Shown here: piece by piece, positions 44,004 through 62,671 of the stretch | Numbering within the stretch: the first letter of the stretch is position 1 | Layout: every line of letters starts with the position of its first letter | Assembly (NCBI RefSeq): GCF_001049895.1 | Contig: NZ_CVPE01000005.1 | Coordinates: 434,001 to 498,000, forward strand | Direction of reading: 5' to 3' | Source of the DNA: Rubeoparvulum massiliense | GTDB taxonomy: Bacteria > Bacillota > Bacilli > Rubeoparvulales > Rubeoparvulaceae | DNA: 64,000 nucleotides | Translations under genes and position numbers: made by a program | Notes under the pieces: generated by a model | What the model saw: only the letters and a program-made list of their open reading frames with translations | The model's database searches: none | Told to the model about the DNA's origin: nothing

Positions 44004-44073
44004 AAAAAGCAGAGAAGATTCCCAAGTCGATATCGTGGGCATCCCCAACAGACTTAGCATCCTTCTCTGCTGT
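44004..44073 (-). terminator. Long-hairpin terminator after the MccF-like gene
   Basis: Outer stem AGCAGAGAAG/CTTCTCTGCT and inner stems AAGTC/GACTT and GGG/CCC, followed on the minus strand by five T. The right arm can alternatively pair with another TTCTCTGCT copy at 43989-43997. Confidence 0.75.
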
Positions 44074-44101
44074 AATCATACTTTTCCTTGAGCTTCTTGT
44101 A

Positions 44102-45079
44102 TTAGTGCTTAATCACTTTTAACTGAACATGATTTCCTTTCGCATGTACAGAGATAATTCCGCCAACAGGGAAGGTAAAAAACGGTGTGGTGTGACCAAA
44201 ATTCAAGTTCGCTACCACTGGAAGATGGGCTAATTCCTTTTTCGTCCGAATCATATACTCAATCTCGCTATTCTTCACATGCGAGATATTCTGAAAGCGA
44301 CCGATTAAAATCGCCTGTACGCCATGAAAGTCGGGCTGCTGAATTAAGGATTGTAGCATCCGATCAAAAACATGAATGGATGAAAGCTCATCGTCTTCAA
44401 TCAACAAGATACTATTCTGTAACGATGGCATATAGTTGGTTCCTTGCAAGAGGCTGATGGTGCTTAAATTTCCACCTAAGCTAACACCCGTGGCCTCTCC
44501 TTCATTGATCACTAACGGACCTTCATTATCAATAAAGATTCGGTCCTCCTGATCCAGATACCACTCATCATCGCTCCAATATGGTGCTGGAACCACCTCA
44601 TAGGACCCATCCTTCATCACACACTTCTGGAACTTTGTCCAGGTATATTCGAAGCCTTTCTTCATTGAAAAGGATGAAAAATGTGGACCAGAATAAGTGA
44701 CGAGCCCCGTTTGCTTGTAAATGGCATTGCTTAATGCGGTAATATCAGAATACCCACAGAATACCTTAGGATTCTGTTTAATCACGTCATAATCCAAATA
44801 TTGAAGGAGTTGATTGGCATGAAATCCCCCGATGGCGGTCAAGATCCCCTTCACATTCGGATCGCGGAAGGCATCATGGATATCCTCCACACGGGAAGCA
44901 ATGGAGGAGGTGCTTAATTCATCGCACTCGCCTACATGCTTACCCATGGATACATGAAATCCATACTGTTCTAAACGTTCGATGGCATATTCAATCTGTT
45001 CTTCATGAAGAATGGTCATACTGGTTGACGGAGCAATCACGCGAATTTCATCGCCGGCTTGTAATTTCGTTGGTATCAT
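44102..45079 (-). CDS. S66 family serine peptidase, MccF-like
   Basis: Cytosolic serine carboxypeptidase-fold enzyme, 325 residues. The triad is Ser111 (FCGYSD), Glu228 (LLIEDDE) and His296 (NFGHTTP), matching Ser118-Glu243-His311 of E. coli MccF. The aromatic stretch PYWSDDEWYLDQ (166-177) lies where MccF enzymes carry the tryptophan loop that stacks on the nucleotide. That favours the MccF branch (cleaves aminoacyl-nucleotide toxins such as processed microcin C) over LD-carboxypeptidases, which recycle murein peptides. It follows the GNAT gene by 24 bases with an AAGGGGAG site. Confidence 0.87.
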   Translation of the reverse strand: MIPTKLQAGDEIRVIAPSTSMTILHEEQIEYAIERLEQYGFHVSMGKHVGECDELSTSSIASRVEDIHDAFRDPNVKGILTAIGGFHANQLLQYLDYDVIKQNPKVFCGYSDITALSNAIYKQTGLVTYSGPHFSSFSMKKGFEYTWTKFQKCVMKDGSYEVVPAPYWSDDEWYLDQEDRIFIDNEGPLVINEGEATGVSLGGNLSTISLLQGTNYMPSLQNSILLIEDDELSSIHVFDRMLQSLIQQPDFHGVQAILIGRFQNISHVKNSEIEYMIRTKKELAHLPVVANLNFGHTTPFFTFPVGGIISVHAKGNHVQLKVIKH

Positions 45080-45103
45080 TTAAACTCCCCTTACTTTCCT
45101 CTT

Positions 45104-45646
45104 TCATTTCTTGCTTGCAACATATTCATCATGGAGGATACTCATCACATATTCATCATGATACGCACCATCACGAAAAATATGTTGACGAAGGATTCCT
45201 TCTACTTTAAATCCACACTTCTCGTAACTACGAATAGCACGAGGATTAAAGGCATATGTGAAGAGCTGCACCTTATTCATATTCATCTGCTCAAAAATAA
45301 AACGAACAAGAACATTCATAGCATCCGTACCATACCCCTTGTTCCAGTAGGGTTTCCCCAAGAATATTCCTACTACGGCGTAGCGGTTCTTCCAATCCAC
45401 TTGATTCACACCACAACCACCGATATATTCGCCACTCTCTAATAATTCTATGGCAAAATTATATTTTCCATCATTATTAAAGGCAGATTGACGATGTAAC
45501 CACTCTTTTTCTTCGTGAAGGGGAATCGGGAAGGGAATACCTGGATGAAGGTAGCGTTTGACATCTGGATCATTAACCAATTCCCATGCACGAAGTACAT
45601 CTTCTTCTCGTACATCTCGTAATCCAATTTTTTCTCCAGTATACAT
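45104..45646 (-). CDS. GNAT acetyltransferase (RimJ/RimL type)
   Basis: Acetyl-CoA-dependent N-acetyltransferase of 180 residues. The acetyl-CoA loop is in FLGKPYWNKGYGTDAM, and the C-terminal NPRAIRSYEKCGFKVEGILR block is typical of RimJ/RimL-like enzymes. RimL-type enzymes can acetylate the amino group of aminoacyl-nucleotides, as the MccE acetyltransferase domain does. The C-terminus repeats HDEYV twice nine residues apart, from a short DNA repeat. A strong AAGGAGGAG site. The gene is first in a two-gene unit with the MccF-like peptidase and lies behind a ykkC-type riboswitch. Confidence 0.9.
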   Translation of the reverse strand: MYTGEKIGLRDVREEDVLRAWELVNDPDVKRYLHPGIPFPIPLHEEKEWLHRQSAFNNDGKYNFAIELLESGEYIGGCGVNQVDWKNRYAVVGIFLGKPYWNKGYGTDAMNVLVRFIFEQMNMNKVQLFTYAFNPRAIRSYEKCGFKVEGILRQHIFRDGAYHDEYVMSILHDEYVASKK

Positions 45647-45702
45647 CTCATCTCCTCCTTATTTTGCACTTCGATTCCTCCGCTGGCTCCCTGTTTGTAT
45701 AC

Positions 45703-45853
45703 AAAAAGCCTGTAAGAAGAATCCCGTGGTACTGAGACTCATCCTCCAGGCTTTTATCCTAGAAGTGTAGCACATGGCCTGTATCGCTTGGACCTGACAC
45801 CCAAGTATGGGTCGGAACCCTAGATACACTCTCAAGAATCGTAACTAATGTTT
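45703..45853 (-). ncRNA. ykkC-family riboswitch (subtype 2-like) before the GNAT gene
   Basis: Minus-strand RNA with the ykkC hallmarks: CTAGGGTTCCG (45813-45823), then GGTCCAAGCGATACAGG, and GGATAAAAGCCTGGAGGA. P1 is GAGTGTA/TACACTT (45825-45831 with 45763-45769). The AAAAGCCTG strand (45747-45755) belongs to the aptamer and is also the 5' arm of a terminator with CAGGCTTTTTG, so ligand binding should prevent termination. ACAC is followed by TT rather than the GG typical of guanidine-I, which suggests a ppGpp, PRPP or nucleotide-sensing subtype. Confidence 0.85.
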
Positions 45854-45859
45854 CCAGAT

Positions 45860-45888
45860 ATTATATGAAATACGACTTAGTTTGTCAA
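45860..45888 (-). promoter_or_regulatory. Consensus sigma-A promoter of the riboswitch transcript
   Basis: TTGACA, 17 bases, TATAAT on the minus strand, both boxes exact. The -35 lies inside the last codons of the transglycosylase gene. Confidence 0.9.
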
Positions 45889-49777: not shown

Positions 49778-50062
49778 AAATTAAACATTATAGACGATGA
49801 TGGAGAAAGAAGCATTGAAACGATCCTTTCAGCGAACTGGAAGCGGTGAGAGCCAGTAGGATACGCCAATGTGTATGTTCACTCACTAGTCTTTGCTCTC
49901 AAAGTGAACCGAGTAGGAGCAAAGGGTTGTCCCCCTTACGAGGACCCTTGTTTATCAAGACAAGCGTAAAGATATTCAACATTGCATTGATTTAGCATTG
50001 TTGAATCAAGTAGAGTGGTACCGTGAAGCAACTTCACCTCTATATAGAGGTGAAGTTTTTTT
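49778..50062 (+). ncRNA. T-box leader, predicted UUC (Phe) specifier, before an NSS transporter gene
   Basis: The T-box AGAGTGGTACCGTG is at 50012-50025, and the terminator stem ACTTCACCTC/GAGGTGAAGT (50031-50056) with seven T follows. Aligning Stem I with the glycine T-boxes places TTC at 49878-49880 in the specifier position, followed by A. The U in TGGUACC calls for an A73 discriminator, which tRNA-Phe has and bacterial tRNA-Trp (G73) does not. With its promoter it fills the 49666-50125 gap. Confidence 0.85.
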
Positions 50063-62422: not shown

Positions 62423-62606
62423 CGATAGGGCAGAGGCGCGAGGTTTATGAGTAGTTACCTTGAGGATGACAACGATGAGAGGTAAACAAAAGGATGCTTC
62501 GCCGAAGTGATCAGCACAGTCAAGATGTTGATTGCTGGGGTTATTCCGAATAGGAATAACACTGTCATTGTAAATCACCCCATTTACAATGGAGCACTAC
62601 TTATCG
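62423..62606 (+). ncRNA. Lysine riboswitch (L-box)
   Basis: Conserved blocks in order: GATAGGGCAGAGGCGCGA (P1/J), TTTATGAGTAG, GGATGCTTCGCCGAAG at 62492-62507, the ACTGTCA junction and GGAGCACTAC before the closing P1 strand CTTATCG. They match the lysC leader of Bacillus in order and spacing. P1 pairs 62423-62428 with 62600-62606. A terminator at 62672-62710 gives lysine-dependent shut-off. Confidence 0.93.
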
Positions 62607-62671
62607 AGTTTGGGTTATTTTTTCGAGCGATGAACCATTATTTTTATTGTGGTGAACTCATTCGAAGAACC

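Follow-up and report, generated by a model that had tools for sequence, protein, structure and literature searches.

A predicted ppGpp riboswitch of a known kind with an unusual GNAT-S66 cargo in Rubeoparvulum massiliense

In Rubeoparvulum massiliense a two-gene operon encoding a GNAT acetyltransferase and an S66 peptidase is very probably operated by a ppGpp-sensing riboswitch; the probability is put at about 85% on comparative grounds and does not include the role of the enzymes. There is good support, for the RNA as for its ligand class, that the leader is a ppGpp riboswitch of ykkC subtype 2a, a known kind of RNA, the unusual part being the GNAT-S66 cargo, for which an antidote role is an attractive conjecture. 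The ppGpp riboswitches in the literature are described as regulators of branched-chain amino-acid genes, glutamate genes and transporters. In R. massiliense this kind of RNA is predicted to control a GNAT and a peptidase of the MccF clade, and its sub-form is mostly found before exporter-type genes; ppGpp signalling through RNA may therefore have a defensive side, which offers concrete substrates for testing.

Organization of the operon

The minus strand of the window (the whole stretch of 64,000 nucleotides, 64 kb, that was analysed) carries in succession a promoter, a structured leader, the GNAT gene, the S66 gene and a strong terminator (Table 1). The promoter, the two genes and the final terminator form a two-gene operon, in agreement with the initial annotation, whose consensus promoter is confirmed at every base. 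Read on the minus strand, the upstream transglycosylase gene overlaps the promoter with its 3' end; the GNAT and S66 genes are separated by 24 bases and both are preceded by good ribosome-binding sites. At 39.4%, the GC content of the GNAT gene is below that of the window (44.3%); this low value, together with an RNA sub-form that is otherwise clostridial, makes horizontal acquisition possible.

Table 1. Features of the GNAT-S66 operon, in positions of the window
Feature	Position	Strand	Basis
Sigma-70-type promoter TTGACA-17-TATAAT	45860..45888	-	12/12 consensus bases
Riboswitch aptamer, ykkC subtype 2a (oral taxon 876 form), predicted	45734..45833	-	leave-one-out covariance model
Intrinsic terminator AAAAGCCUG...CAGGCUUUUU	45703 (approx.)..45755	-	fold -25.3 kcal/mol
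GNAT acetyltransferase gene, 180 aa	45104..45646	-	PF13302, 100 bits
S66 peptidase gene, 325 aa	44102..45079	-	PF02016 + PF17676
Operon-end terminator GCAGAGAAG...CTTCTCTGCTTTTT	about 44004..44072	-	fold -33.9 kcal/mol

Detection and structure of the leader RNA

A default Rfam scan of the window reported only a lysine riboswitch (62423-62607, +) and a T-box leader (49788-50044, +) located upstream of a sodium-dependent SNF-family transporter. The leader RNA of the operon was omitted because its match to RF00442 (Guanidine-I, ykkC), at 45741-45834 on the minus strand, scores 56.5 bits (E 2.1e-9), below the gathering cut-off of 63 bits. The ykkC-family leader recognized in the initial annotation is borne out by this sub-threshold match and by a covariance model built from 20 clostridial sequences with the GNAT-S66 leader left out, under which the leader reaches 100.7 bits (E 5e-25), far beyond chance; in the same model the PRPP, ilvE, natA and xpt RNAs score 46-59 bits and the guanidine-I RNA 26.

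The aptamer consists of P1 (GAGA/UCUC), P2a (UGUAUC/GAUACA), P3, P4 and the joining segment ACACUU. Covariation is found in P2a, P3 and P4 of the relatives, with 23 double-change cells versus 6.7 in shuffles, and in the sub-form alignment helix cells are paired in 99.6% of cases versus at most 54% for slid partners. The extra terminal helix (P0/P1) GAGA/UCUC is kept in all 21 sequences, and C69 of ACAC, the base pairing with the guanine of ppGpp, is invariant among the sub-form sequences.

Class of the leader RNA

Within the ykkC family a marker position is occupied by A in guanidine-I RNAs and by a pyrimidine in PRPP and ppGpp RNAs, which also share an extra helix joining the ends of the aptamer (PMC6031431, PMC5912903), while the guanosine G96 of PRPP RNAs is absent or is not G in ppGpp RNAs (PMC6031431, PMC10687018). 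In the leader RNA the marker is C, included in GGUCCAAGCGA, corresponding to the subtype-2 state, and the PRPP-type guanosine (G96) is missing, the CCU-GGA spacing being, by hand alignment, 1 nt shorter than in the PRPP RNA of the same genome.

The reference for the ppGpp class is the validated riboswitch of Clostridiales bacterium oral taxon 876 (F0540), for which individual nucleotides have been named (PMC10687018). The comparison with this aptamer is limited to nucleotides that the paper names individually, and covers 21 of them (G10, U11, A14, C16, A18, G19, C45, G46, G48, C49, C66, A68, C69, A70, U72, U73, A94, C95, G98, C100, and C102). The leader RNA agrees at 19 of them, including U72/U73, A94, and G98, and the two mismatches (G46 to A and C95 to U) are each found in relatives (L124 and L116). 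On the same positions the number of agreements is 20-21 for each of five clostridial RNAs, 16 for the PRPP RNA of the genome, 12 for an ilvE-type RNA and 9 for the genome's guanidine-I RNA. The leader RNA is like the oral taxon 876 RNA in its four-way-junction aptamer, the ACACUU segment, the absence of the PRPP guanosine, the GGA-GAGUCUC 3' strand and a terminator overlapping P4 and P1; it differs at positions 46 (A) and 95 (U) and in standing before GNAT-S66. The proposal that the RNA senses ppGpp, which had been put forward only as a condition, is therefore strongly supported by the named nucleotides, the score under the clostridial model and the marker C.

Two RNAs encoded in the same genome serve as internal controls: a guanidine-I RNA at C4:208876, before an SMR exporter pair (78.5 bits), and a PRPP-type RNA at C4:203440, before purE-purK. 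One genome then holds three ykkC members, guanidine-I (SMR pair), PRPP (purE) and predicted ppGpp (GNAT-S66), the first two about 5 kb apart (locus L004).

Guanidine sensing is rejected on the marker C, the low score in the guanidine-I model and the gene context, and PRPP sensing on the absence of the G96 equivalent, the ACACC of PRPP RNAs being also not present. In comparison to PRPP and ilvE-type RNAs the leader is odd in having ACACU for ACACC and GAUGAGUCUC for GGUAGGUUUC. It could be read as a ykkC variant that binds something other than ppGpp, be it PRPP, a nucleoside diphosphate or a new ligand, given that U replaces C at the residue contacting the 5-phosphate in the PRPP aptamer and that, just before the conserved guanosine of J4-1, it has A in place of the G found in PRPP RNAs. 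However, the validated ppGpp aptamer likewise has U72/U73 and G98 (PMC10687018) and the PRPP guanosine is lacking in the leader, so that this reading is very improbable; a novel ykkC ligand class, considered on account of ACACU, was dropped because A94/C95 accompany U72/U73 and G98 in the validated aptamer.

Expression platform and predicted mechanism

The terminator sequence, AAAAGCCUG-GA-GGA-U-GAGUCUC...GGGAUUC-U-UCU-UA-CAGGCUUUU, is the minimum-energy fold of the leader and is built from the 3' strands of aptamer P4 and P1. Terminator and aptamer P4/P1 are mutually exclusive, as expected from the competition between the two described in the initial annotation. In the validated oral taxon 876 RNA, ppGpp makes P1 more stable and prevents terminator formation (PMC10687018), and from homology to that RNA an ON switch is predicted; both the ligand ppGpp and the ON direction are inferred by this homology. 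The genome encodes two alarmone synthetases, a Rel-type protein of 720 aa and a small alarmone synthetase of 268 aa. Upon amino-acid shortage or blocked tRNA charging, Rel would make ppGpp, which would pair with the base that is C69 in the oral taxon 876 RNA and stabilise P1 and P4; the terminator could not then form, and the GNAT and the S66 peptidase would be expressed by transcription antitermination.

The sub-form in other genomes

A pattern scan with ACACU and related features in one genome per species (84,980 species) gave 25 loci, 24 of which are real RNAs, all from Clostridia; the remaining one (L123, in a Pasteurellaceae genome) is a chance match without ykkC context. The 24 RNAs have in common GAGAGUGUAUCUAGGG...GGUCCGAGCGAUACAGGAU...ACACUUUURGGANAAAAGCCYRAAGGACGAGUCUC. 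Among 399 genomes of the class of R. massiliense no second member of the sub-form was found in the 398 others; in this search, with a model that includes the leader RNA, the leader scores 103 bits and the next best sequence 69. None of 18 clostridial members (from loci L100-L124, e.g. L106:3866-3961) tested against Rfam 15 reaches any gathering threshold, and a laboratory-validated riboswitch form is consequently missed by Rfam at default thresholds.

The clostridial RNAs are followed in 16 of the 24 loci by an ABC ATPase resembling drrA, in most cases accompanied by two PF06182 permeases, and in four by MFS transporters (one assigned by eye); the others precede a beta-CASP hydrolase (1/24) or a GNAT (1/24, in Clostridium tepidiprofundi), or are without gene assignment (2/24). 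Among the ordinary ppGpp-type RNAs surveyed, most stand before ilvE, ilvB, gltB or genes for transporters of branched-chain amino acids.

The GNAT of C. tepidiprofundi, located behind a sub-form RNA, is 54% identical to that of R. massiliense, and at two further loci in another family (L076 and L083) ordinary ppGpp-type RNAs precede two tandem GNATs that are 37-40% identical to it. The probability that this GNAT subfamily would turn up by chance twice independently, directly behind any of about 200 subtype-2 RNAs, is ~3e-5 in a rough Poisson estimate, in which 37 subfamily matches were counted by eye and 3500 genes per genome were assumed; RNA and GNAT are on this basis a recurrent association. 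A parallel from another RNA class is given by Guanidine-IV and its variant, which control GNATs (PMC9788692). The tandem GNATs of L076 and L083, which belong to two genera of one family, sit upstream of a valine-tRNA-synthetase-like gene.

The association of the RNA with S66 is not recurrent. An ilvE-S66 locus (L071/L266) was considered as a second riboswitch-S66 case and rejected; L071 gives no support, since an intrinsic terminator (GACAAGG...CCTTGTCTTTTT) separates ilvE from the S66 gene.

The two enzymes

The S66 peptidase contains, in the motif alignment, the catalytic triad Ser111/Glu228/His296 and the loop WSDDEWYLDQE, so that the MccF triad and tryptophan-rich loop noticed in the initial annotation are both present. 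The triad is non-discriminating because LdcA has it too. The loop has a counterpart, W(S/T)DE..W, in E. coli MccF and in the agrocin 84 protein AgnC5, and is missing from E. coli LdcA and from the second S66 of the genome. Against solved structures the peptidase scores 408 bits with BA_5613 (4e5s/5usd) and 370 with Lmo1638; the scores are lower with B. anthracis MccF (160) and E. coli MccF (137) and do not exceed 68 with 5z01 (murein tetrapeptide carboxypeptidase) and 1zrs. On scores and loop the enzyme is assigned to the MccF clade, in the chromosomal BA_5613/Lmo1638 group. On these data an LdcA identity, which the initial annotation had named as part of what would speak against its proposal, is rejected, although the S66 tree did not settle the grouping, its forks being left open because of long branches. 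The peptidase shares with MccF the Ser-Glu-His triad, the tryptophan-containing substrate loop and the two-domain S66 architecture, but is only 29% identical to the E. coli protein, and no mcc biosynthesis genes are present among the neighbouring ORFs.

The GNAT had been regarded as a counterpart of MccE, a homology that is ruled out by the tree and the catalytic residues. MccE catalysis depends on the general acid Ser553 and the base Glu572 (PMC4964394). The GNAT has the same fold and Pfam family (Acetyltransf_3) as MccE and RimL, but is 22% identical to MccE and carries Ala in place of Ser553 and Ile in place of Glu572, the Ser and Glu being conserved in RimL; in the tree MccE and RimL are joined with support 100/99 and the GNAT lies on a separate branch, across a 91/97 split. 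In the AlphaFold2 model (pLDDT 89) the nearest structures by Foldseek are SpeG-type acetyltransferases. The SpeG spermidine N-acetyltransferase is the closest solved fold (TM 0.82-0.84) and gives the best PDB sequence hits, but the identity is about 27% and the NCBIfam SpeG model scores 50.8 bits versus a cut-off of 218; the fold is predicted to be SpeG-like, which does not imply polyamine use. Close homologues of the GNAT (57-61%) occur in a few genomes of the class, without the sub-form RNA, and none was found in the viral contigs searched.

The survey for further GNAT-S66 loci gave no adjacency in 29 S66 loci and none in 22 GNAT loci, and a conserved GNAT-S66 module is not borne out in these neighbourhoods. 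Since the pairing is unique to R. massiliense in the sample, the two genes may not share one substrate. In the open-access literature, no GNAT-S66 system is described for ykkC and acetyltransferases or for ppGpp riboswitches and drug resistance, in line with the initial remark that no described system joins these parts.

Possible role of the operon

We infer that the operon is an outlet for stress and detoxification, and a general role of this type, or one linked to export, is plausible. In this reading the S66 peptidase would cleave compounds resembling aminoacyl- or peptidyl-nucleotides, and the GNAT would block an amine, in a substrate that need not be that of the peptidase. A specific version of this role for the enzymes is that of a stringent-response antidote, in which the task of the operon would be to protect aminoacyl-tRNA synthetases: aminoacyl-nucleotides of the microcin C type would inhibit the synthetases and raise ppGpp, and so induce hydrolysis by S66 and acetylation by the GNAT. 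In the E. coli mcc cluster, immunity and export are the functions of a peptidase of MccF type, a GNAT and an MFS exporter (PMC9239234); the sub-form regulon holds exporters of the MFS and ABC types as well as a GNAT, and the exporter-rich regulon lends the antidote model indirect support, in addition to the MccF-clade triad and tryptophan loop of the peptidase. On the other hand, the GNAT is without the MccE/RimL catalytic residues and groups elsewhere, the GNAT-S66 pairing is not conserved and the identity of the peptidase to E. coli MccF is low, so that the specific antidote role appears improbable. Of the joint anti-microcin role initially proposed, the S66 half, on family evidence, and the alarm logic stand and the MccE half does not, and the role as a whole stays conjectural because the GNAT is not MccE-like and the pair is not conserved. 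It is likewise doubtful, if a shade less so, that the ppGpp riboswitch more broadly uses the stringent response to signal the poisoning of aminoacyl-tRNA synthetases, turning on antidotes (the peptidase of the MccF clade and a detoxifying GNAT of a new type) and forming with the clostridial ABC/MFS exporters and GNAT a self-protection regulon of ppGpp RNAs.

A serious rival to the antidote role is nutrient scavenging in starvation, in which the operon would recover or trim compounds that contain amino acids (peptides, modified amino acids), without any toxin playing a part. This use would fit ppGpp RNAs in general, which mostly govern amino-acid supply (ilvE, ilvB, gltB, and branched-chain transporters), but the sub-form precedes exporter-type genes, not biosynthesis genes, in about 20 of the 24 clostridial loci, and the peptidase carries the MccF-type loop, the loop-less S66 of the genome being the second one; scavenging is on balance unlikely, while deserving to be kept in view.

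Aptamers in xpt-pbuX leaders

In nine xpt-pbuX leaders (L036, L057, L130, L138, L141, L142, L144, L148, and L152) a purine riboswitch is directly followed by a ykkC subtype-2 aptamer, in which the G96 position is often A (e.g. CCCAGAAGGAC and CCCAGATGGAC). PRPP may for this reason not be the ligand there, and a guanine-ppGpp tandem is conceivable from the sequences of these leaders.
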